This document shows positions 24,222 to 35,028 of a stretch of 64,000 bases of DNA, piece by piece; position 1 is the first letter of the stretch; every line of letters begins with the position of its first letter. The notes below the pieces were generated by a model, which saw nothing but the letters and a program-made list of their open reading frames with translations, made no database searches and had not been told where the DNA came from. The DNA comes from Slackia exigua ATCC 700122 (GTDB taxonomy: Bacteria; Actinomycetota; Coriobacteriia; Coriobacteriales; Eggerthellaceae), in assembly GCF_000162875.1 (NCBI RefSeq), contig NZ_GG700630.1, forward strand, positions 884,015 to 948,014, written 5' to 3'. Position numbers and translations under genes: made by a program.

Positions 24222-26810
24222 CTACGAGCTTTCCTGCACGTCGTCGAGGGAAACGCCGAGCGCGCTGAAGATGCTCGCGGCATCCATCCCCGCATCCTGC
24301 GCAGGCTCAGGCGCCGGCGCGGGCGGTCGAGGGCGACTCTTGGTCCGAGGCTCCGAATCGGACGGTCGAGGGCGGCCTCCGGCCTGCTGCCCCGAAACGC
24401 CGGGCGCCGCCGGGTCGGAATCGGCCGAAGCAGAGGCGGACGCGGACGATGCCGGCGCCTTCCTCGCAGGCATCGCAGACGGATGCGGCGCACGCTTCGC
24501 CGAAGGTTCCGGGACGGATGCCTTTTCCTGTGCAGGGTTCGACGTCCCGGCAGCATCTTCAGGCATCGGCCATCCGGCGAGAGGAGGCATCTCCTCGCTG
24601 CGCGCGGGAACCATGGAATCGAATCCGAGACGCCTGCCCGCCTCGGCGGGATCGACGGGCTTCGCACCGTCGACGGTCAGGACGGCGTGCGCGGCAGCCT
24701 CGTCGGCGTAGGATTCCGCGTCGGCATCCGAATACGGGACGGCATCTCCGTCGGGCGGCGCAGCCGCCTCCGCGACGGCCGGCCGAAGCGCAGAGGACGG
24801 AATCGGCATCGGACGCGTCGTCGCACGGTCGAACGCGGGTGCGACGGATGCGTCCATATCCCCGCGCGCACGGGCCGCTTCCATAGCGGCGCGCGCGCGT
24901 TCGGCAGCGCTCATCCCCGCACGTCCCGAAGAACGCGACTGATCAGGCACCGAAGCGGACGAAGCCGAATCGCCGCCCTTCGTGCGCGACGATCCTTGGG
25001 GACGGCCGCCTCCCTGCGTGAATTCGAAGGGCACCTCTCCTCCGAACGCATGCGCGAGCGCGGCGGAGACCATCTCGGACACTTCGGGCTTCTGCACGGC
25101 CGAGAACGCGAAAGAATTCTCATGCGAGAATTCGACGGCCAAGCCCGACGCGCCCTGAACGGGCGACACGCTTGCGGACAGGAGCAACGCGCCATATGCC
25201 GTCCTCAGGTTCTTGACCTCGGCGACGGCCGCCTGCCATCCTCTCTGCAGGGCAGCGGGATTCGAAAGCTTCGCGCGGACGGCTTCGGAAGGCTCCGCGG
25301 ACGAGAAGGCCAGCTTCGGCTCAGACGCCGACGGAGAATCCGCCGCAGGCGCCGGCGAGGAATCGAGCCCCGATTGCACGGCGGGAATGCGTTCTGCAGA
25401 CGCAACCGCAGCCGCGCCGGAAGATGCGTCGGATCCCGACGCATCGGACGCAGCCGATGCCGGGGCGCCGGTATCGACGACAGGTACGGACGACGGAGCC
25501 CCTCCCCCCTTGATCGCGCGCGCCGCCGCGATCACCGAAGGTGAGAGGCCGGATGCGGAAGGCGCATCCGCAGCTGCGGACGCAGCCATCGGCACGTCGG
25601 CGACCGACGTCGAGTCGAACATCGAAGCCGCAACACGAACGGCAGGCGCATCCACGGGACGGGCGCCCTGCGCGCACGCGCGCTCGAGCTCTTCGACGCG
25701 CGCCGCCAGCGATGCGAGCGTCAGATCGCTTTCAGGGCGCGCCATGCGCGTCAGCGCGATTTCGAACGACAGGCGCGGATTGGCCGATGAGCGCAGCTCG
25801 GCGCACACATCGCCCAGAATCGAAAGGACATGCGCGAGCCGATCGGGACCGAACAGCCCCGCCTGAGCCGCAAGCTGCTCGTTCGTCGCCGACGACCGAG
25901 GCTCCAGCGCCCCGTCGGTCAGGATGAACGCATACAGATCCCGCACGTACGATGCCAGGTCGCGTGCGAACTGCGCAAGGTCGGCACCGGTTTCGACATA
26001 TTCCGCCACCCATGTGAAGCATGCGGCCGCATCGCGTCGGGCGATGCGCGCGACGATGTCCGTCATGTCGTTCGAATCGAGTGCCCCCAGGACGTCGAGA
26101 GCGACCTGCATCGTGACGCGGCCCTCGCCGAACGCGATGAGCTGCTCGAGCGTCGTCAGCGCGTCGCGCATCCCGCCTTGGGCGCGCTTGGCCGCGAGCT
26201 CGAGCGCCTCCGCCTCGAACTCCACGCCTTCGGAGGCGCAGACGGCGCCGAGGCGCGCGATGATCTCCTCGTTCGCAAGACGATGGAAGTCGAAGCGCTG
26301 GCAGCGCGAATGGATGGTCGCCGGAACCTTGTGCGGATCGGTCGTGCAGAGGATGAAGACCACATGGCTCGGAGGTTCCTCGAGCGTCTTCAGCAAAGCA
26401 TTGAAGGCGGCCGTGGACAGCATGTGGACCTCGTCGATAATATAGATCTTGTAGCGTCCGCGGACCGGGGCGAACTGAACGCGGCCGATGATTTCCTCGC
26501 GGACGTTCTCGACGCCCGTGCGGCTGGCCGCGTCCATCTCGTTGACGTCGGGGTGCGTGCCCTCGGCGATGGCGAGGCACTGCTCGCATTCGCCGTCGGG
26601 CGCGGGCGTCGGACCTTTCTCGCACAGGAGCGCCTTCGCCAGCAGGCGCGCCATCGTGGTCTTTCCCGTGCCGCGCGGGCCGCAGAAGAGATAGGCGTGG
26701 CTCACGCGATCGGATTCGAGCGCGTTCTTGATCGTGCGTTCGATATGGATCTGGCCCACGACGTCGTCGAACGTCTGCGGGCGATACTTCCTATAGAGCG
26801 CCTCTGTCAT
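24222..26810 (-). CDS. dnaX: DNA polymerase III subunits gamma/tau
   Basis: The clamp-loader ATPase. The 862-residue protein has Walker A GPRGTGKTT (residues 45-53), the zinc module from CEKGPTPAPDGECEQC, Walker B region YIIDEVHML, sensor 1 ILCTTDPHKVPATIHSRCQR, then clamp-loader domain III to about residue 380. The rest, about 480 residues, is Ala/Ser/Pro-rich and disordered with one ordered island (about 530-600: AALQRGWQAAVAEVKNLRTA) that resembles the tau domain contacting polymerase. No A-rich slippery sequence for making gamma was seen. The order dnaX-ybaB-recR supports the call. Confidence 0.96.
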   Translation of the reverse strand: MTEALYRKYRPQTFDDVVGQIHIERTIKNALESDRVSHAYLFCGPRGTGKTTMARLLAKALLCEKGPTPAPDGECEQCLAIAEGTHPDVNEMDAASRTGVENVREEIIGRVQFAPVRGRYKIYIIDEVHMLSTAAFNALLKTLEEPPSHVVFILCTTDPHKVPATIHSRCQRFDFHRLANEEIIARLGAVCASEGVEFEAEALELAAKRAQGGMRDALTTLEQLIAFGEGRVTMQVALDVLGALDSNDMTDIVARIARRDAAACFTWVAEYVETGADLAQFARDLASYVRDLYAFILTDGALEPRSSATNEQLAAQAGLFGPDRLAHVLSILGDVCAELRSSANPRLSFEIALTRMARPESDLTLASLAARVEELERACAQGARPVDAPAVRVAASMFDSTSVADVPMAASAAADAPSASGLSPSVIAAARAIKGGGAPSSVPVVDTGAPASAASDASGSDASSGAAAVASAERIPAVQSGLDSSPAPAADSPSASEPKLAFSSAEPSEAVRAKLSNPAALQRGWQAAVAEVKNLRTAYGALLLSASVSPVQGASGLAVEFSHENSFAFSAVQKPEVSEMVSAALAHAFGGEVPFEFTQGGGRPQGSSRTKGGDSASSASVPDQSRSSGRAGMSAAERARAAMEAARARGDMDASVAPAFDRATTRPMPIPSSALRPAVAEAAAPPDGDAVPYSDADAESYADEAAAHAVLTVDGAKPVDPAEAGRRLGFDSMVPARSEEMPPLAGWPMPEDAAGTSNPAQEKASVPEPSAKRAPHPSAMPARKAPASSASASASADSDPAAPGVSGQQAGGRPRPSDSEPRTKSRPRPPAPAPEPAQDAGMDAASIFSALGVSLDDVQESS

Positions 26811-26880
26811 AGAAACCTGCCTTCGCCATGAACCTCCGGAACGTCATCTTCGCACGTCCCGCATCTGAAAACACCGTCGG

Positions 26881-27537
26881 CTATCGCTTCTTCCGAGATG
26901 CGAGCGCAGACCGTGCCGCGCCGACGACCGCCGGCGCGGCCGACACCGCCACGATACCCAAAAGGATGGCCTCGAAATGGGCCTGGACGAGCGGAATCCC
27001 GCCGAAGAAATATCCTGACAGCACGAACAGACTGACCCATGATACGCCGCCTATGGCGTTGAAAAGCGTGAACGTCGCGAATCCCATGTGTCCCATGCCC
27101 GCCACGAACGGCGCGAACGTGCGGAAGAAGGGCATGAACCGCGTGATCACGATCGTGAGCCCGCCGTATGTCGCGAAGAACCCGTCCAGTTTGGCGACAC
27201 GCTCGGGCGTCAGGGCCTTGACCCGGCCGGAATCGACGATGCGCGATCCGAAGAACCGTGCGATCCAGTAGTTGGACGTGTTGCCGAGAATGGCCGCCGT
27301 CCAGAAGACGACGAGCGTCGCGACGATATTGAGCCCGCCGCCGTCGGCGCTGAAGACGCCTGCGGCGAACAGGAGGGAATCGCCGGGAAGGAACGGAAAG
27401 AAGACGAGCCCCGTCTCAACGAACACGACGAGGAAGAGCGGAGCGTAGACGAGCGCCGGGCCCAATGACACGATCCATCCCGCGATGGCCGTGCGAGGGT
27501 CGCTCAGCAGATTGATGAAGAATCGGATGATGCCCAC
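26881..27537 (-). CDS. DedA-family membrane protein
   Basis: DedA/SNARE-associated family proteins are thought to flip polyprenyl-phosphate or phospholipid carriers. The predicted 218-residue protein has the family pattern FVETGLVFFPFLPGDSLLF, GNTSNYWIARFFG, the conserved Arg motif ITRFMPFFRTFAPFVAGM, and FNAIGGVSWVSLFVLSGYFF, with about five membrane segments. The start is probably GTG at 27537; an upstream ATG at 27618 would place the first codons inside the SRP RNA gene. The ribosome binding site is weak (AGGCAGG). It lies between the SRP RNA and dnaX. Confidence 0.85.
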   Translation of the reverse strand: MGIIRFFINLLSDPRTAIAGWIVSLGPALVYAPLFLVVFVETGLVFFPFLPGDSLLFAAGVFSADGGGLNIVATLVVFWTAAILGNTSNYWIARFFGSRIVDSGRVKALTPERVAKLDGFFATYGGLTIVITRFMPFFRTFAPFVAGMGHMGFATFTLFNAIGGVSWVSLFVLSGYFFGGIPLVQAHFEAILLGIVAVSAAPAVVGAARSALASRKKR

Positions 27538-27598
27538 GTTCGCCTGCCTGTGTCGGATGGCCTCGGATGCCACCGCACCGCGGGCGAGGCCGAGAAAC

Positions 27599-27709
27599 GC
27601 AGTGCCTTGGACAGGCAAGGGCGCTCGTCAGAGGTTCCTTATGGCTGCTTCCTCCCGGACCTGACCAGGTTCGAAACATATCGCCGCCCATGCCCGTCCA
27701 AGGCACTGC
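27599..27709 (-). ncRNA. ffs: Signal recognition particle RNA (small bacterial 4.5S type)
   Basis: The minus strand holds the conserved apical hairpin GGTCAGGTCCGGGAGGAAGC followed by AGCC, with the GGAA-type tetraloop region as GGGA-GGAA. The ends pair as GCAGTGCCTTGGA (27599-27611) with its complement at 27697-27709, closing a single long hairpin of about 111 nt. It binds Ffh and directs membrane protein targeting. A TATACT box lies just upstream, and a GC-rich hairpin (27559-27591) downstream may end it. Confidence 0.93.
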
Positions 27710-27722
27710 ATGAACTCGGTTC

Positions 27723-27728
27723 AGTATA
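27723..27728 (-). promoter_or_regulatory. Candidate -10 box of the SRP RNA gene
   Basis: TATACT on the minus strand lies 14 nt before the first paired base of the SRP RNA. The -35 match is poor. Confidence 0.5.
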
Positions 27729-27850
27729 CCCGATACGGCCGAGCGCGATGCGCTCTGCCACCAAACGGCCATAGCCGAAAGGGCGCCCGAGCCGCATCGG
27801 CCCGAACGCCCTCCGTTTCCCGATTTCAGACGCCATGCGCGCCCGGGCGG

Positions 27851-28096
27851 CTATTCCTCTTCGGCGAGACGGTTGATCAGCGCGCAGAGGGACTGGGCGC
27901 TGTTGAAGTTCGCGGGAACGATGTCCTTCGCGGGAACCGAAAGGTCGAACTCGTCGTCGATCGCGGAGATGATCGCAAGGATATCGAACGAGTCGATCTC
28001 GCGATTGTCCACGAGCGCGGTGGCGTTGCGGTAGTCGACGCCTTCCTTGACGTCTTCGAGCATTTCGATGACCGCATCAAGCGTGATTTCTTCCAT
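27851..28096 (-). CDS. Acyl carrier protein of a dlt-like operon (DltC-like)
   Basis: An 81-residue carrier with the phosphopantetheine attachment serine in EIDSFDILAIISAIDDEF (Ser36). The rest fits DltC-type carriers: short and acidic, with the FDLSVPAKDIVP loop. It lies downstream of the adenylation and PLP genes and is probably loaded by the DltA-like enzyme. It is the last gene of the five-gene operon, 18 nt after the PLP gene stop. A GC-rich inverted repeat at about 27780-27815 may end transcription. It could serve another acyl chain, but position favours the dlt role. Confidence 0.85.
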   Translation of the reverse strand: MEEITLDAVIEMLEDVKEGVDYRNATALVDNREIDSFDILAIISAIDDEFDLSVPAKDIVPANFNSAQSLCALINRLAEEE

Positions 28097-28114
28097 GGAT
28101 GCTTCTTTCCTTCG

Positions 28115-29305
28115 CTACTGCTGGATCCAATTGAGGGTGCTCGTCTCGATGAAATCGCGCACGAGCGCCACGCTCCCGTCATCATAGCGCACGACGATGC
28201 GCGGCATGGTGCGACTCAGGAAAAGATGGATTCCCTCCGTGACGGAATAGGCTCCCACGTTGAAGAACGCGAGCACATCGCCCGGACGGAAGTCCTCGAG
28301 CTCGACCGCGCGCGTCAGAATGTCGTTGATCGTGCAGAGGCTGCCGCACAGGCACCATTCCGCGACGTTGCCGGCATCGACCGTGCGATCGAGGTGCGAA
28401 AGGTTCGCGATCTGCGGAACGTGCATGCCCATCATCTGGCCGAAATAGGTCAGATGGTTCATGCCGCCATCGAGGATGCAGTAATTGGTGCCCTTGTTGG
28501 ACTTCATGTCCATCGCGCGCGTGACGTACGCGCCGCAGGGAGCCGCGAAGAAGCGGCCCATCTCGATCGTGAGCTCCGCCTTGGTCGCCACGCGCTTCAG
28601 CACGTCGGCCATCTCTTTGAGCGGCGCGAGGTCGTCGGAGAAATCGTCGTCCATGAAATACGGGACAGCCAGGCCGGGGCCGTATTCGAGCCGCTCGACG
28701 ACGAAATCGTGCTCGGATGCGAGCTCGTCGATGAACGCTTCGATCTTCTCGAGCTCCTTGATCTGGTGCGTGAGCTTCTTGCGCTGCGTGCCCACGAAAT
28801 AATGGATGCCGACCACACGGATGCCGGGCCAGGCACCCAGGTCGTCCACGACGGACACGAGGTCTTCCTTGGACATGCCGAACTGGCTGCCCGCATTGAG
28901 ACGCAGCAGCACGTCGACGACCAGGCCTTTTTCGAGCGCAACCTGATTGATGTAACGCACATGCAGAAGCGATTCGGCGGTCAATACGCCGCAGCCGTAG
29001 TCGATGGCGTCCCCGATGTCTTCCGGCAGCTTGTTCACGCCGGAATAGACGATCTTCGCCGGATCGATGGCGGCGCGCTTGCAGATGTCGAGTTCGCCGG
29101 GGCTGCAGACCTCGAGGCGGTCGGCGGCATGGGCGGCCGGGCGCACGAAGAAGGGGTTGGCCTTCATCGCGTAGCATAGGCCGACGGTCTCGCCGACGAT
29201 ATCCCTGCATGCCGCGATGCGGCGCTCGAGGGCGCCTGCATCGAACACGAATGCGGGCGTGCCGTAATCGGCGACGACGGCTGAAAGCTCTTCGTTCGTC
29301 ATCAT
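28115..29305 (-). CDS. PLP-dependent decarboxylase, LysA/ornithine-decarboxylase fold type III
   Basis: A 396-residue fold-III PLP enzyme of the diaminopimelate/ornithine/arginine decarboxylase group. It shows the Schiff-base lysine in YAMKANP (Lys47), LEVCSPGELDICKRA, IHYFVGTQ, the phosphate-binding turn YGPGLAVPYF, the catalytic EMGRFFAAPCGAY, and CGSLCTINDIL with the second-subunit cysteine. It lacks the LGGGLGIPY form of housekeeping LysA. The start overlaps the adenylation gene stop as TAATG. In this context it probably makes or alters the amino acid used by the DltA-like enzyme; substrate is unknown. A lone LysA copy cannot be ruled out. Confidence 0.8.
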   Translation of the reverse strand: MMTNEELSAVVADYGTPAFVFDAGALERRIAACRDIVGETVGLCYAMKANPFFVRPAAHAADRLEVCSPGELDICKRAAIDPAKIVYSGVNKLPEDIGDAIDYGCGVLTAESLLHVRYINQVALEKGLVVDVLLRLNAGSQFGMSKEDLVSVVDDLGAWPGIRVVGIHYFVGTQRKKLTHQIKELEKIEAFIDELASEHDFVVERLEYGPGLAVPYFMDDDFSDDLAPLKEMADVLKRVATKAELTIEMGRFFAAPCGAYVTRAMDMKSNKGTNYCILDGGMNHLTYFGQMMGMHVPQIANLSHLDRTVDAGNVAEWCLCGSLCTINDILTRAVELEDFRPGDVLAFFNVGAYSVTEGIHLFLSRTMPRIVVRYDDGSVALVRDFIETSTLNWIQQ

Positions 29306-30822
29306 TATCTGACGCCTCCCATCTCCGCCAGGACCTTGCGGTCGATCTTGCCGTTCTTGGTCATGGGCATGCTTTCGACCTCGAAGACCTTGCTCGGGAC
29401 CATATACTGCGGAAGCCTGGACTTCAGCTCCTCGAGCAGCGCGTCCTTGTCGATGCCGCCCGTGTAGAAGAGCAGGATGCGCTTCTTCTTCGCATTATAG
29501 ATGCAGCAGGCGCGTTCGACGTCGTCGACCGCCTGGGCGCCCGCTTCGATCTCGCCGAGTTCGATGCGCTGGCCGAGATGCTTGATCTGATGGTCCTTGC
29601 GCCCGACGTAGACAAGGTTGCCCGCCTCGTCCCACATGCCGATGTCCCCCGTGCGGTACATCATCTCGAGCGTGCGCGCGTTCAGGGGATTCTGCATGAA
29701 TGCCTCGGCCGTGCGCGCCGGGTCGTTATAGTACCCGAGCGCAAGGGCGGTTCCGCTCACGCACACTTCGCCGTGCTCCCCCGCACCGACGACTTCGGCA
29801 TCGTCCTCGTCGAGCAGGAAGACCTTCTCGTTGGGAAACGCGCGACCTGCAGGAATGACCTCGTCGCGCGCGAACTCGCGGTCGATGACGTAGTAGGTGC
29901 AGTTGCAGGTGATCTCCGTCGGGCCGTACACGTTGACGTACGTGGCGTGCGGCAGATGCGCGCGCCAGACGTTGAGCTGCTTGACCGGCATGACCTCGCC
30001 GCTGAAGATGACCTTGTTCACCGTCTCGGGAACCTTGTAGTCGAAGCCGCCCATGATCGAGACGAAGCACATGGCGCTTACCGCCCAGGTGCAGGTCGTG
30101 ATCTTACGTTCCACCAGGTAATCCATCAGCTTCGCCGGCTGGCTGAAGTAATCGCGCGGAATCATGTGTACCGTCGCGCCCGTCAGAAGGCCGCTGTAGA
30201 TGTCCTTGACGGACACGTCGAAATCGAACGGAGCCTGATTGCCGATCTCGTCATGCGCAGTGAAGCCGAAAAGGCTCGTGAAGTGCGTGATGAAATCGAT
30301 GACGGAACGGTGGCACACGGCGACGCCCTTGGGAGTGCCGGTCGAACCGCTCGTGAAGTTGATATAGAGCGGATCGACGTCGAGCGCCGACGCGCGGAGA
30401 GCGGCGATGGCATCGGCATCGGCCGCGGTGCCGAGGATGCCTTCCAGCTCGACCACATCGAGCGACGTGCCTTCGAATGCCTCGCGCGCGGCATCGGCAT
30501 AGGCGGCGTCGGTCAGGACGATGCCCGGCTCGAGCGTTCCGACGATGCCGAGCAGACGTTCGCGAGGCTGGCGGACGTCGAGCACGGAATACGGGCAGCG
30601 CGCGTACGTGGCGCCCAGCATGCCGCAGATGGCCGTGGTGCTCTTCTCGAGGAACAGCGCGACCGGCGTGCATGGCGCCTGCCGCGCGGCGAGGTAGGTT
30701 CCCACGCCCTGCGCACGCGCCACGAGCTCGGCGAAGCCCACCGTCGAATCGGGATCGGCGAATGCCGTCTTGTCAGGGGAGACGGCGGCCGTGGACTCCA
30801 GCCACTCAAGTACGTTTCTCAT
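29305..30822 (-). CDS. DltA-like amino acid adenylation enzyme
   Basis: A stand-alone ANL-superfamily adenylating enzyme of 505 residues, the DltA length. Visible core motifs are FTSGSTGTPKG (residues 156-166), NQAPFDFDVSVKDIY, YGPTEIT (299-305), YRTGD, GRKDHQIKHLGQRIELGEIE and NGKIDR with the catalytic lysine. It should activate an amino acid as AMP ester and load it on the carrier. The residue in GEVMP-preceding IFSGE is Ser274, where D-alanine-specific DltA has a Cys (LFCGE in Bacillus). Start ATG at 30822 with GGAGAAGG. It lies between SGNH and PLP genes. Confidence 0.85.
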   Translation of the reverse strand: MRNVLEWLESTAAVSPDKTAFADPDSTVGFAELVARAQGVGTYLAARQAPCTPVALFLEKSTTAICGMLGATYARCPYSVLDVRQPRERLLGIVGTLEPGIVLTDAAYADAAREAFEGTSLDVVELEGILGTAADADAIAALRASALDVDPLYINFTSGSTGTPKGVAVCHRSVIDFITHFTSLFGFTAHDEIGNQAPFDFDVSVKDIYSGLLTGATVHMIPRDYFSQPAKLMDYLVERKITTCTWAVSAMCFVSIMGGFDYKVPETVNKVIFSGEVMPVKQLNVWRAHLPHATYVNVYGPTEITCNCTYYVIDREFARDEVIPAGRAFPNEKVFLLDEDDAEVVGAGEHGEVCVSGTALALGYYNDPARTAEAFMQNPLNARTLEMMYRTGDIGMWDEAGNLVYVGRKDHQIKHLGQRIELGEIEAGAQAVDDVERACCIYNAKKKRILLFYTGGIDKDALLEELKSRLPQYMVPSKVFEVESMPMTKNGKIDRKVLAEMGGVR

Positions 30823-30835
30823 GCCTTCTCCTATC

Positions 30836-32176
30836 TTATTTCGTGATGGAAAACGTCCTGCAGCGCTCGTATTCGGCGGTCGATCCGACCTTGCGCGCAT
30901 TGACGCAGACGCGGTACGTGCCGGGCTTGTCGGGGTCGAAGGTGTAGCTCGACTCATCGGAGTAATCCTGCAGCACGTCCCACTTGCCCGTGTCCTTGTT
31001 CTTCACGAGGAACTGGTATTCGGCCTGGACGCCTTCGCCGGCAAGCACGCTGGCGTCGATCTTGGTGCTGCCGTCGTCGTTGTTCTTGGTCTTGTAGGTG
31101 ACCATGTCGATATAGTCGATGTGCGAGGCGTAGTCCTCCGGCGCATAGAAGAGGCCGTCCACGTCGTCGCCCGCATCGATATGCTGGAACAGCTTCGCGA
31201 CGCCTTCGCTGAAGATCCTGCCGCCCTCGGTGTTCATATGCTGATAGTCGGCGAAATACTCCGGCTTCTGATCGAAAAGCTCGGGGCGCGCCAGGTTGAA
31301 GTCGTAGTAGTGCGCGCCATGCTCTTCGACGAGGCTTTTGATGCCGACCAGCTTGTCGAAATAGCCGTCGTACTCGAGGATGTCGTAAGCGGGCAGGGGC
31401 GTGCAGATGACGTCGAGCTCGATGTCGTGATCGGCGCAATAGTCGCAGATATCGGCAAGCGTCTGCATCTTGCGGTCGTTCGGCTTGCTCTTGCCGTAGG
31501 TATCCAGGTAGCTGCGATAGACCTTGGGATTGTAGTCGTAGACCCTGTCGTAGTTGCCGTAGCCCTTGCCGTAGTAGGTCCAGCCCTTCTCGTTTTCCAT
31601 GGCCGCATCGGCGATCGAGGTGCCGTCGAGCTTCATCTTGATGTTGCGATACAGCTTCTGCGGCTTCGCGTCGACATGATTGATCACCCAAGGGAACATC
31701 CAGTTGATCGAATCCTTCTTGCCATAGAAGCGATCGTCGGTCAGGCACGGGAGCGCGTCTTTGGCGAACTGCAGCGGCTTGCCGCGGTCTTTGTTGCGGA
31801 TATAGGCGCCGCCCGGGCTCGGAGAGTCCTCGCTCTGCACGAGCGACACCTCGAAGCTCAGAACCACGCGCTTGATATGATGATCCTTGTACGCCTGCTT
31901 GATGCCGAGAAACGACTCCTCTATCAGCTGGCTGGGAGTGCACATGTTGTACGAGGACGTGCCGCATTCCTTGTCGATGACCGCGGGATCGAAGCCGCGC
32001 TCGCCCTGGGACGTGCCCACATAGACGGTGTCGATATCGGATTGCTCGTAGTAGTCATGCCACATGACCTGGCTCTTGGAGCCGGTCGGCTCGATCACGA
32101 ACGTCAAGCCCCAGTTCACGAGGACGATGAAGAGGAGAACGGCGACGATCTTCGCCCCTGCCTTAAAAATTCGCAT
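30836..32176 (-). CDS. DltD-like SGNH protein with a C-terminal beta-sandwich
   Basis: A 446-residue membrane-anchored protein: one N-terminal helix (residues 6-27), then an SGNH/DltD-type ectodomain with the catalytic Ser56 in YVGTSQG and the Asp310-xx-His313 pair in FADYQHMN. After residue 345 there is an extra beta-rich domain of about 100 residues (TYRVCVNARK...), an Ig- or three-Tyr-like module not usual in DltD. It likely completes transfer of the amino acid to the surface polymer. The ATG lies 13 nt inside the MBOAT gene end; GAGGATT precedes it. Confidence 0.75.
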   Translation of the reverse strand: MRIFKAGAKIVAVLLFIVLVNWGLTFVIEPTGSKSQVMWHDYYEQSDIDTVYVGTSQGERGFDPAVIDKECGTSSYNMCTPSQLIEESFLGIKQAYKDHHIKRVVLSFEVSLVQSEDSPSPGGAYIRNKDRGKPLQFAKDALPCLTDDRFYGKKDSINWMFPWVINHVDAKPQKLYRNIKMKLDGTSIADAAMENEKGWTYYGKGYGNYDRVYDYNPKVYRSYLDTYGKSKPNDRKMQTLADICDYCADHDIELDVICTPLPAYDILEYDGYFDKLVGIKSLVEEHGAHYYDFNLARPELFDQKPEYFADYQHMNTEGGRIFSEGVAKLFQHIDAGDDVDGLFYAPEDYASHIDYIDMVTYKTKNNDDGSTKIDASVLAGEGVQAEYQFLVKNKDTGKWDVLQDYSDESSYTFDPDKPGTYRVCVNARKVGSTAEYERCRTFSITK

Positions 32177-33737
32177 AGATGAATCCTCCTGCGCTCGGCG
32201 CATACGCGAACGATCCGATGGTCAGCACGAGCACGAACGTATAGATCGCGAAGCGAGCGACGACGTTGAGCTTCAGGATCTCGCCGGCCACATCCACCTT
32301 GCGTTCGCGCAGGACGCTCACGACGAAAATGATGAGGCATCCGATGATGGCGATACGCAAGGACATGCCGATGTAATTGACGCTGTAGCTTTTCAGCACC
32401 GACATGAACAGATCGGCCCTGAAGTTGAAGATGGTGTTGTAGAAGCCGGTGAGCACGTCGCCGAAATCCTCGATGCGGTCGAAGTACCAGCCGATGTTGA
32501 CGACGATGAACGTACGCAGGATGCGCCAGACGTGCCAGAACGCGGTTTCGGTATTCACCCTGAATAGCTTGATCATGCGTTCGAACAGAGGCGATGCGAG
32601 GTCGGCCGCCGCGATGACGATGCCGTTGTACAGGCCCCACCAGATGAAGTGGGCGTCGGCGCCGTGCCAGAGGCCCACGAGGAAGAACACGAGGATGTTC
32701 GCGATGGATGCCGGCAGCGTGCGGCCCCAGTGACGGCCGAGCTTGTCGCCGGACCATTTGCCCAGCTTCTGCATCGAGGGACGCAGCGCGAACGGATAGA
32801 AGACGTAGTCGCGCATCCACGCGCCCAGCGTGATGTGCCAGCGACGCCAGAAGTCGCCGAGCGAGATGGAGAAATACGGCTGACGGAAGTTCTCGGCGAG
32901 CTTGACGCCGAAGAGCTGGGAGACGCCGCGCACCATGTCGATGCCGCCGGAGAAGTCGGCATACTGCTGGGCCGAGTAGAGCAGGATGCCGAACACCACG
33001 ATGGAGCCCGGCGTGGAGCCGTCGATGTGGTTCAGGCAGCCATTGATCGAACGTACGAGCAGGTCCGCGATCGCGAACTTCTTCATCATGCCGAAGCCGA
33101 TGAGCAGAAGCGCGCGCTTGGCGTTGTCCGCGTCGAACGAATGGCGCTCGTACAGCTGGTGGGCGAGCGCGTCGAAGCGGTTGATGGGACCTTGGATAAG
33201 CTGCGGGAAGTACGAAACGAACAGGAGATACTTCGCGAAATTGCGTTCGGGTTCGCCCTTGCCGTTGTAGGTGTCGATCAGGTATCCGACGGACTGGAAC
33301 GTGTAGAACGAGATGCCGAGCGGCAGAAGCAGGCTGGATGCCAGGAAGCTGTCGCCCGCGCCCACGGTGTCGAGGAACGTGTTCCAGTATTTGATGTAGG
33401 AAAGCACGCCGAAGTTCAAGATGAGAGCTGCGAGCAGGAAGTACCACTTGCGGCGGGCGAACTTCGCCTTGATCTTCTTCTTCTCGGACTTCTCCGCGGC
33501 TTTGCGCAATTCCTTGCAGCGCGCGTCGAGCTTGCCGAACGCCAGGCCGACGAGCCAGGTGGAACCGGCCGTCAGCAGGATGAAGAAGAGGTGCTGCCAG
33601 CCCGTGGCCGTGTAGAACCCGAGCGATCCGATGAGAAGCACGATCCATTGACCGCGTCCGAACAGCCGTCCGACGGCGAAATATGCGACGAGCAGCGTGC
33701 AGAGAAAGCAGACGAACTCGAGCGAATACAGTTGCAT
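32163..33737 (-). CDS. MBOAT O-acyltransferase (DltB/AlgI type)
   Basis: A 524-residue membrane-bound O-acyltransferase with about 11 helices. It has the family segments GISFYTFQSVGYLIDTYNG, SYFPQLIQGPINRFDA, FWRRWHITLGAWMRDY with His301, and GLWHGADAHF with the catalytic His358. In Dlt systems DltB moves the aminoacyl group across the membrane from the carrier; AlgI-type proteins O-acetylate polysaccharides. It is the first gene of the operon; its stop overlaps the SGNH gene. The ribosome binding site is weak. Being first, not between DltA and DltC, sets this apart from the dltABCD order. Confidence 0.88.
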   Translation of the reverse strand: MQLYSLEFVCFLCTLLVAYFAVGRLFGRGQWIVLLIGSLGFYTATGWQHLFFILLTAGSTWLVGLAFGKLDARCKELRKAAEKSEKKKIKAKFARRKWYFLLAALILNFGVLSYIKYWNTFLDTVGAGDSFLASSLLLPLGISFYTFQSVGYLIDTYNGKGEPERNFAKYLLFVSYFPQLIQGPINRFDALAHQLYERHSFDADNAKRALLLIGFGMMKKFAIADLLVRSINGCLNHIDGSTPGSIVVFGILLYSAQQYADFSGGIDMVRGVSQLFGVKLAENFRQPYFSISLGDFWRRWHITLGAWMRDYVFYPFALRPSMQKLGKWSGDKLGRHWGRTLPASIANILVFFLVGLWHGADAHFIWWGLYNGIVIAAADLASPLFERMIKLFRVNTETAFWHVWRILRTFIVVNIGWYFDRIEDFGDVLTGFYNTIFNFRADLFMSVLKSYSVNYIGMSLRIAIIGCLIIFVVSVLRERKVDVAGEILKLNVVARFAIYTFVLVLTIGSFAYAPSAGGFIYANF

Positions 33738-34005
33738 GTCCTAGCCTAACTCCCCTAGCGTCCTTCCGGGGACGACGCGATCCGAGACGCACGACCGGCA
33801 TCTTGGAACGACGCGATCCGCCTTCGTCCTGCCACTTCCTCTTTCGATGCGCGGACGCGCCCCGCTGCGGGACGGCATCCGGCTTCTCGCACGTCATACC
33901 ATGAAATCGCCCGAGAAATGCGCATGTGCGAAAAGCATACCCGCTTTCCCCTGAGGGAATTCGATATGGTTTTCTTTTCGTAAACTCTTCGCATACCCTG
34001 CATCC

Positions 34006-34011
34006 TACAAT
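34006..34011 (+). promoter_or_regulatory. Candidate -10 box of apbE
   Basis: TACAAT lies 7 nt before the apbE ATG, which would place the transcription start at or next to the start codon. The -35 region has no good match. Confidence 0.4.
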
Positions 34012-34017
34012 GGACGC

Positions 34018-35028
34018 ATGGACACCAACGACACCGCACTTGACATAATCCCGCGCGAAGAGGACTGGCGCTTCAAGGAAGCATCCGCGGACGATCCGCA
34101 TCGCTACCATGAAGCGAATTTCTACGCCTTCAACACCATCGTCACCTTCAAGGCATCAGGCGACCGAGACGCCGTCGAGGCGGCGTTTCTCGCCGGCCGC
34201 GATGCGTGCCGAACGTACGAGCGCCTCTTCTCGCGATTCCTTCCCCACAGCGACATCGCGCGCATCAATGAATCGCGCGGCGCAAGCGTCGTCATCGCGC
34301 GCGATACCTACGACGTGCTGGCGCACAGCCTGCGCTATTGCGAGCTGTCTGAGGGTATGCTCGACATCACGATGGGCTCGGTCACGCGGCTCTGGGATTT
34401 CCATCGGGGCATCATCCCCGATCAGGAATCCCTCGACGAAGCCGTCGCGCACGTGGGATGGCAGAAGCTGAAGCTTCTGGACGGCGACGACGTCTGCATC
34501 GCGACGCTTTCCGACCCCGAGGCCTCGATCGACGTGGGCGGCACGGCGAAGGGCTGGATCGCGGACCGGCTGATCGATCTCATGACATCCCAAGGGCTCG
34601 AGCATCTCTTCGTCAACTTGGGCGGAAATGTTGCCGTTCATGGCGGGCGCCCCGACGGCACGCCGTTCCGCATCGGTGTGAAGGATCCGCGCGACGCTTC
34701 GCAGATCCTCGGCGCCGTATCCATCGCGAACGGCTCGGTGGTCACGAGCGGCCTGTACGAGCGCATGTTCGAGAAGGACGGGCGCAGGTTCGCGCACATC
34801 CTGAACCCGCAGACCGGCATGCCCGTCGAAACCGATGTCGAAGGCGTGACGGTCGTCGGCCCCCGCAGCGTCGACTGCGAGGGATTCTCCACGACGCTCT
34901 GCGCGCTCGGCATCGAATACGGCATGGACTATGCCCGGTCAAGGCCGGAAATCACGACGGCGGTCTTCATCGACCGCGACAATGTCGCGCACGTCGTCGA
35001 CAAGACCGTCCCAAGCGCTTCGAAATAG
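34018..35028 (+). CDS. apbE: FAD:protein FMN transferase (ApbE)
   Basis: ApbE covalently attaches FMN to a threonine of an extracytoplasmic target protein, using FAD. The 336-residue protein has the N-terminal FNTIVTF segment, DITMGSVTRLWDFHRG, DVGGTAKGWIADRLID (the Mg/FAD-binding GGxAKG), GGNVAVHGGRPDGTPFRIGV, HILNPQTGMPVETD, and the C-terminal VTVVGPRSVDCEGFSTTLCA. It has no signal peptide, so it may act before export, or use an unusual one. Its likely substrate, the small lipoprotein, is next door. There is no ribosome binding site and the -10 box is nearly on the start, hinting at leaderless translation. Confidence 0.92.
   Translation: MDTNDTALDIIPREEDWRFKEASADDPHRYHEANFYAFNTIVTFKASGDRDAVEAAFLAGRDACRTYERLFSRFLPHSDIARINESRGASVVIARDTYDVLAHSLRYCELSEGMLDITMGSVTRLWDFHRGIIPDQESLDEAVAHVGWQKLKLLDGDDVCIATLSDPEASIDVGGTAKGWIADRLIDLMTSQGLEHLFVNLGGNVAVHGGRPDGTPFRIGVKDPRDASQILGAVSIANGSVVTSGLYERMFEKDGRRFAHILNPQTGMPVETDVEGVTVVGPRSVDCEGFSTTLCALGIEYGMDYARSRPEITTAVFIDRDNVAHVVDKTVPSASK

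Follow-up and report, generated by a model that had tools for sequence, protein, structure and literature searches.

A five-gene operon of Slackia exigua encodes a candidate carrier-fed MBOAT/SGNH surface-acylation system with its own PLP decarboxylase

Through D-alanylation, Gram-positive bacteria set their surface charge and how well they resist cationic peptides. In the Dlt system (DltA, DltB, DltC, DltD and DltX), which D-alanylates teichoic acids, an adenylating enzyme, a carrier protein, a membrane-bound O-acyltransferase (MBOAT) and an SGNH protein are encoded in one operon. Here, we analyze a 64,000-nucleotide stretch of the genome of Slackia exigua ATCC 700122 (contig NZ_GG700630.1, positions 884,015 to 948,014; hereafter, the window), which contains an operon for the same four kinds of protein together with a pyridoxal 5'-phosphate (PLP) enzyme. 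All five are minus-strand genes and together span 33737 to 27851, in the order B (MBOAT), D (SGNH protein), A (adenylating enzyme), P (PLP enzyme) and C (carrier). On balance, we favor the interpretation that they form a carrier-fed MBOAT/SGNH surface-acylation system with built-in decarboxylation.

Besides Dlt, other described systems resemble parts of this operon. Acetylation systems of the PatA/PatB and AlgI types, like B and D, combine an MBOAT carrying a C-terminal FxYxxF shuttle with a separate SGNH protein. PMC12148441 describes PatA as acetylating the tyrosine of its C-terminal motif, which reads FIYANF in Neisseria gonorrhoeae PatA; in Dlt the same motif stands on the microprotein DltX, and the shuttle-fused systems are described as using acyl-CoA, without a carrier. 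A stand-alone adenylating enzyme, a carrier and a PLP decarboxylase are likewise combined in VinN/VinL/VinO (vicenistatin) and BolO/BolC/BolN (bolagladin), which feed polyketide or peptide synthases. PMC11284099 reports decarboxylation of a carrier-bound amino diacid by the Vin proteins, PMC7756342 proposes carrier-bound decarboxylation for the Bol proteins and reports that a bolN deletion was not rescued by beta-alanine, and PMC7857480 describes BtrK as the PLP decarboxylase of the glutamyl-carrier in the BtrI/butirosin pathway.

The order of the operon genes is conserved far beyond chance. In a scan of 84,980 species, each represented by one genome, 294 stretches were found to encode a P relative of some kind; locus counts refer to the best 80 of these, each taken with at most 10 kb per side, so that P is present in all by construction, and near-duplicates stay in the counts (L002 and L003 are the window itself, and L011 and L033 have identical P). 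The A gene is no more than 300 bases away from P in 77 of the 80 loci, and both A and C are near P in 72. All of A, C, B and D accompany P in 60 of the 80 loci overall and in 46 of the 55 well-flanked ones, those with at least 6 kb on each side of P. A previous interpretation of the window, made from the letters alone (the sequence-only reading), had hinged on this order being kept in related species, and it is kept in distant ones as well. The commonest orders are APCBD (18/55) and BDAPC (10/55), and BDAPCBDD occurs in five Olsenella-type loci (L044, L046, L048, L050 and L052), where two MBOAT and three SGNH genes surround A-P-C, an arrangement that would suit a single loaded carrier supplying several acceptors. 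One exception among the 55, a Butyrivibrio locus (L042), has B, D, P and C without A beside P (order BDPC), and its adenylating enzyme may lie elsewhere in that genome.

The 80 loci belong to Bacillota, Coriobacteriia and one Treponema; Lachnospiraceae, Erysipelotrichaceae, Oscillospiraceae, Clostridiaceae, Olsenella-type Coriobacteriia, a Treponema and others are named among the loci and tree labels. The close relatives of P belong to Eggerthellales, Olsenella-type Coriobacteriia and Bacillota, with Eubacterium, Blautia, Dorea, Lachnospira, Butyrivibrio and Olsenella among the genera. The distribution is patchy: P is matched in 21 of 138 genomes of the window's own family (E ≤1e-70) and in 18 of 197 genomes drawn evenly from the class (E 1e-60), and the operon therefore looks like an accessory system rather than a housekeeping one.

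The genes are tightly packed, as the sequence-only reading had claimed, and their identities were confirmed by family searches, alignment and structure prediction. B and D overlap by 14 bases, given the preferred start of D at 32176, where a relative in genome G101 begins, over the longest-open reading frame (ORF) start at 32203. A begins 13 bases past D, its start being most likely the ATG at 30822, downstream of a purine-rich ribosome site, and not the longest-ORF start. The A stop and the P start overlap by one base (TAATG), and C follows 18 bases after P.

The B gene (32163..33737, minus strand, as are all five) encodes a 524-aa MBOAT (PF03062, E 8.4e-14) with a DltB-like core and extra C-terminal helices. 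Its score against the DltB model TIGR04091 is 156 bits, below the cut-off of 375. H301, H358 (in WHG) and Tyr521 are invariant in 28 of 28 aligned sequences. Tyr521 belongs to the C-terminal hexapeptide FIYANF (codons 32166..32183), the very sequence given for N. gonorrhoeae PatA in PMC12148441. All 76 complete relatives longer than 440 aa (from 92 matches, including the extra MBOAT genes of some loci) have a C-terminal Yxx[FY], 55 of them as an exact FxYxxF. In the AlphaFold2 (AF2) model (pLDDT 89.1), DltB is the nearest solved fold (8jem, Z 27.1, 388 residues, root-mean-square deviation 3.3), only over residues 1-430; the top row of the comparison, 6bug (Z 27.3), bears no title beyond 'a membrane protein'. 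Past the DltB-matching part, helices 456-478, 483-489 and 492-509 lead to the motif, an arrangement that PMC12148441 describes for PatA, the last four residues being modeled with low confidence (pLDDT <50). Among the 48 small ORFs (25-100 aa) in 26801-34700 of the window, none ends in an FxYxxF motif as a DltX-like ORF would. Its terminal motif and predicted fold mark B as a PatA-type MBOAT to which the shuttle tyrosine is fused. The PatA/AlgI-type systems are described in PMC12148441 as using acyl-CoA and no carrier, whereas here an adenylating enzyme, a carrier and a decarboxylase are encoded beside the MBOAT, so the donor is probably a different one.

The separate SGNH protein D (30836..32176) is membrane-anchored and DltD/PatB-like, with a C-terminal beta-sandwich. 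A profile search of D gave no SGNH family match and only a C-terminal Y_Y_Y match. In its AF2 model (pLDDT 89.4), an SGNH domain precedes the beta-sandwich. DltD (6pfx) was the first Foldseek match (E 6.6e-6, with a whole-model TM-score of only 0.34), and the structure comparison returned PatB 8tlb (VIA) at Z 12.2, DltD 3bma at Z 12.1 over 243 residues and many SGNH hydrolases at up to Z 13.7. The predicted SGNH fold is clear, and the nearest subfamily is not resolved by these scores. Numbered from the start at 32203, G63, S65, D319 and H322 are invariant in 30 of 30 sequences, so that D offers the Ser, Asp and His of a PatB-like partner; its relatives were gathered partly by single linkage, 26 of the 78 cluster proteins lacking a direct match to the window's D.

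The A gene (29305..30822; PF00501, E 3e-55) encodes a stand-alone amino-acid adenylating enzyme, which passes the general amino-acid adenylation model TIGR01733 (319 bits, cut-off 317.4) and falls below the cut-off of the DltA model (279 bits against 560). LgrA was discarded as its best solved relative, the 357 bits being made up of two domains (170 + 185 bits) that are level with DltA (192), CmnG (197), GrsA (203) and tyrocidine synthase 1 (215 bits). Plasmid searches gave no close match to A, the best standing at 34%. In the GrsA numbering scheme, mapped by hand, the pocket reads D-V-K-[TIVC]-x-S-[LVI]-C-N in all 95 copies adjoining P, with K517 in 94 (one copy ends short); the count excludes seven adenylating enzymes more than 300 bases from P (in L075, L076 and L089), whose pockets differ. 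One near-fixed pocket across phyla argues for one substrate. Asp235, which we take to be the amino-group-binding residue, is kept. In the alignment, the pocket of DltA 3fcc has D, L and M at its first three positions and C at 301, and A differs from it at 236, 239, 301, 322, 330 and 331. Position 239 is Lys in 95 of 95 copies, Met in DltA 3fcc and Phe in the lone DltA homolog of the S. exigua genome. Both the cut-off and the pocket led us to reject A as a true DltA. Lys239 suggests a substrate with a second carboxylate, the pocket presumably being akin to those of glutamate- and aminoadipate-activating domains; a literature search for three specificity codes found none, and the link between Lys239 and acidic substrates is a presumed one. 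The C gene (27851..28096) encodes an 81-aa carrier protein with weak carrier-family matches (best 1.8e-5; DltC 6.2e-4), in which the phosphopantetheine serine, Ser36, is kept in all 77 complete aligned relatives (from 99 matches).

The P gene (28115..29305; PF02784, E 8.6e-20; PF00278, E 7.7e-14) encodes a fold-type III PLP enzyme of the BtrK/VinO kind. It scores 187 bits against the LysA model TIGR01048, below the cut-off of 298, and its best solved relatives, diaminopimelate decarboxylase (DAPDC) 2p3e and BtrK (E 7.5e-32), are nearly tied. For the tree and alignment we used 100 of the 112 P matches, leaving out L002 and 11 others that were partial, outside 381-469 aa or interrupted by stops; the alignment holds 90 P proteins, 11 LysA-like rows and six other enzymes. 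P forms one clade (Shimodaira-Hasegawa-like approximate likelihood ratio test, SH-aLRT, 100). At a position that we take to lie in the subunit-interface active site, all 90 P proteins have LC[T/S] (LCT in 87, LCS in three) and all 11 LysA-like rows have CE; LCT is also found in BtrK, in two VinO-like enzymes, in one exosortase-associated and in two other enzymes. All 90 share Lys48 (the PLP lysine), Cys324, Asp328, Glu248, Gly250 and Arg251, and all have T or S at 325; with its invariant residues P should be an active decarboxylase. With the BtrK and VinO types P shares LC[T/S], Lys48, Cys324 and a linked adenylating enzyme and carrier; it differs from BtrK, which serves butirosin biosynthesis, in forming a separate clade, and from the Vin and Bol systems in this respect as well. 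Plasmid relatives of P include VinO-like enzymes next to a VinN-like ligase and a methylaspartate mutase; the VinO-like rows were named from such neighbors (AMP-binding protein, cobalamin-dependent protein, methylaspartate mutase and polyketide synthase). An adjacent ligase and LCT-type decarboxylase also occur, among glycosyltransferase genes, as the exosortase-A-associated TIGR03098 and TIGR03099, whose cut-offs A (192 of 592 bits) and P (184 of 478) miss by far, and the exosortase-associated ligase has a pocket of another type.

P is not LysA by two tested features, the cut-off and the CE motif. In 27 of 27 operon genomes another protein scores higher on the LysA model (266-488 bits, against about 144-184 for P), and the window's genome (2.1 Mb, two contigs) encodes a second PF02784 protein with the LysA-type stretches RPAIYGAYH and CENND. 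We therefore rejected P as the housekeeping LysA, and the case that would have counted against the sequence-only reading, P as the only such decarboxylase of its genome, did not arise.

By three tested features, the DltB cut-off, the DltA cut-off and a separate DltX, the operon stands outside the Dlt family. The label 'dlt-like' that it had been given is a loose one: the same four kinds of protein are encoded, but both cut-offs are missed, the shuttle is fused on B and A is a general amino-acid adenylating enzyme. An internal control is provided by genome G119, which carries a full dltABCDX and a P operon. In its dlt locus (L134), DltB (388 aa) lacks the terminal motif, DltC contains LLDSMG, and a DltX of 54 aa ends in FVYNQF, so that the shuttle tyrosine stands on DltX, as PMC12148441 has it for Dlt, and not on the MBOAT itself; the MBOAT of its P operon ends in FMYANF. 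At a second dlt locus (L137, genome G053), DltA, DltB, DltC and DltD were seen and a small-ORF scan gave no DltX. Neither of these two dlt operons has a PLP gene, and the Dlt adenylation pocket differs from that of A. None of the 27 operon genomes has a DltA over the cut-off, though this cut-off misses even the G119 dltA (462 bits), which lies beside dltB, dltC, dltD and dltX. DltB exceeds its cut-off in 43 of the 138 family genomes, many of which are incomplete, and in eight of the 21 with P, where 6.5 would be expected if the two were independent; with this count and with both systems present in G119, the idea that the P operon substitutes for dlt is unsupported. As Dlt and the P operon occur together in some genomes, the two systems probably do different jobs. 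In a literature search (titles and abstract openings; most subscription papers lay outside its coverage, so absence is unproven), we found no account of an operon that combines dlt-like or MBOAT genes with one for a PLP decarboxylase.

The S. exigua genome itself has a lone DltA homolog (L123:6256-7797, minus strand; about 705256-706797 of contig C2 of this genome, G000), scoring 492 bits to TIGR01734 and 365 bits to DltA 3fcc; none of DltB, DltC and DltD was called next to this gene. The only MBOAT-family match in this genome is the window's B.

The mechanism that we favor has four steps. First, A would adenylate an amino diacid at its side-chain carboxylate and load it on the phosphopantetheine arm of C, P would then strip the free alpha-carboxylate on C to leave a beta-alanyl- or gamma-aminobutyryl (GABA-yl)-carrier, B would pass the carrier's aminoacyl group through the membrane to Tyr521 of its own FIYANF, and the D serine (Ser65) would accept the group and attach it through an ester bond to an envelope polymer, which would gain positive charge. 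That A loads C appears very likely, and the relay from B through the tyrosine to D likely. A cell-envelope polymer is the probable acceptor; that P acts on a carrier-bound substrate is fairly probable; and L-aspartate or glutamate, the most likely amino diacids, are our slightly preferred substrates. The anatomy of the operon argues well for the first and last parts of the scheme, and the middle part, decarboxylation on the carrier, is one that we infer. The motif of P is common to decarboxylases of carrier-bound amino acids, which is why decarboxylation would probably follow loading, and the Vin, Btr and, as proposed, Bol trios (counting a butirosin carrier-loading enzyme that we assume) decarboxylate on the carrier, which suggests the same logic for A-P-C. 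The sequence-only reading had P making an amino acid for subsequent adenylation; P should indeed be a LysA-fold decarboxylase, and the order of events is probably the reverse. Its broader proposal, that an unusual amino acid is attached to a surface polymer, fits the anatomy found here.

Several observations weigh against this mechanism. The K/R found at 330-331 in VinN-like enzymes is absent from A (C330/N331), so side-chain activation is something we only infer; were A to activate Asp or Glu through the alpha-carboxylate, P would be unable to act next. Glu357 is invariant in P (90/90) and absent from BtrK and from the VinO-like, exosortase-type and two LysA-type rows compared; it could bind a second amine and would then point to a diamino substrate. 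P adjoins the VinO-like enzymes in the tree (SH-aLRT 94), but this join consists of long branches that the tree program flagged as unsafe, and BtrK and the exosortase type group on the LysA side while P lies beside the VinO-like rows, so that the tree does not settle kinship among the carrier decarboxylases. Only four of the 27 LysA-like proteins exceed the curated cut-off of 298; the other 23 are so labeled by rank, and the window genome's own (273 bits) also by motif. The shuttle-fused MBOAT/SGNH systems are stated to use acyl-CoA and no carrier (PMC12148441), and carrier use by B is read from gene order and from DltB as its nearest solved fold. Eight of the 55 well-flanked loci (L037, L064, L065, L067, L075, L076, L079 and L100) have no MBOAT within 7 kb of P, so A-P-C can serve other ends. 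As to the acceptor, no further neighbor family recurs in more than eight loci (the survey took ORFs of at least 90 aa, including some chance ORFs), so it cannot be read from the neighbors, and the window genome has no match to PF00884 (LtaS-type), for which 10 of 14 control genomes were positive; matches to PF04464 (TagF-type) are present on its contig 1, which makes a TagF-type polymer a possible acceptor.

Among other explanations, the one nearest to the sequence-only reading lets P act first, on a free amino acid such as Asp or Glu, after which A would load beta-alanine or GABA on C for transfer by B and D. Linkage of A, P and C would still be expected, and LysA-fold enzymes such as DAPDC and ornithine decarboxylase use free amino acids (PMC7857480). 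We consider this route unlikely, though the least so of the alternatives, because P has the LC[T/S] motif of carrier-bound decarboxylases, the fixed Lys239 of A would have no partner in beta-alanine or GABA, and the bolagladin decarboxylase mutant was not rescued by beta-alanine (PMC7756342). A diamino diacid such as meso-diaminopimelate could instead be loaded and decarboxylated by P at its free end on the carrier, B and D exporting a lysyl-like group. The second amine could then be bound by the family-specific Glu357, the far carboxylate could be held by Lys239, and the overall LysA-likeness of P (187 bits) would be accounted for. Against this stands the loss from P of the CE glutamate and the arginine/tyrosine region of LysA, which presumably bind the far end of diaminopimelate; moreover, Asp235 is the sole acidic residue of the A pocket, and lysine itself should be available to be loaded directly, given the separate LysA-like protein in 27 of 27 genomes. 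We hold this variant to be doubtful, decidedly more so than the P-first route.

Two further explanations retain little probability. In a diverged dlt operon, A would load D-alanine, B and D would transfer it to teichoic acid, and P would be unrelated or auxiliary; the 279 bits of A to DltA and the structural ranks of DltB for B and DltD for D speak for it. Six pocket differences from DltA 3fcc, the shuttle fused on B, the absence of a DltX-like ORF (0/48), the eight of 21 P-bearing family genomes with DltB over the cut-off, the coexistence of dltABCDX and the operon in G119, and the position of P beside A in 77 of 80 loci (though the set was found through P) make it very improbable. That P is the housekeeping diaminopimelate decarboxylase, misplaced or duplicated into an acylation operon, is hardly credible: the fold is LysA-like, and the genome's own LysA-like protein also falls under the cut-off that P misses, but the better-scoring protein in each of the 27 genomes and the separate clade of P without the CE motif already contradict it.

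If carrier-fed acylation with on-carrier decarboxylation is what the operon does, this chemistry extends from antibiotic making to cell-envelope building, and a carrier protein can feed a shuttle-fused MBOAT. The chances are about evenly balanced that we are dealing with a third, so far unrecognized class of envelope acylation in bacteria, widespread among gut Bacillota and Coriobacteriia, in which Dlt-style loading, VinO/BtrK-style on-carrier decarboxylation and a PatA-style fused-shuttle MBOAT are combined and beta-alanyl or GABA-yl esters replace D-alanyl ones. A parallel system with another amino acid in gut commensals would, if real, be an unseen layer of surface chemistry. Beta- and gamma-amino acid esters should outlast alpha-aminoacyl esters, which are alkali-labile.

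Some further loci and neighbors deserve mention. In L075 and L076, an A-P pair with the same A pocket has no MBOAT found nearby, and the neighbors of L075, judged by eye, include acetyltransferase-like genes, a ketopantoate-reductase-like gene and a second adenylating enzyme with a different pocket; L089 also has an A-P pair with no MBOAT found nearby, and its available DNA begins just before P. On plasmid pAMI5 of Paracoccus aminophilus (L132, 1316-7230), an AMP-ligase, a carrier and an LCT-type PLP enzyme are accompanied by an SGNH protein, a serine acetyltransferase and a GT61 glycosyltransferase; the set may represent a related cassette for decorating the surface of Alphaproteobacteria. 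Within the window, an ApbE-type flavin transferase gene (34018-35028, plus strand) is divergent from the operon, the promoter of which presumably lies in the intergenic stretch 33738-34017; a scan upstream of the operon for sigma-70-type promoters gave no match, with 1.8 expected by chance. Elsewhere in the S. exigua genome (L125, contig C2, 409000-424000), we noted by eye a compact nonribosomal peptide synthetase-like cluster with two ABC-exporter-like genes, carriers, and adenylation and condensation-type genes.

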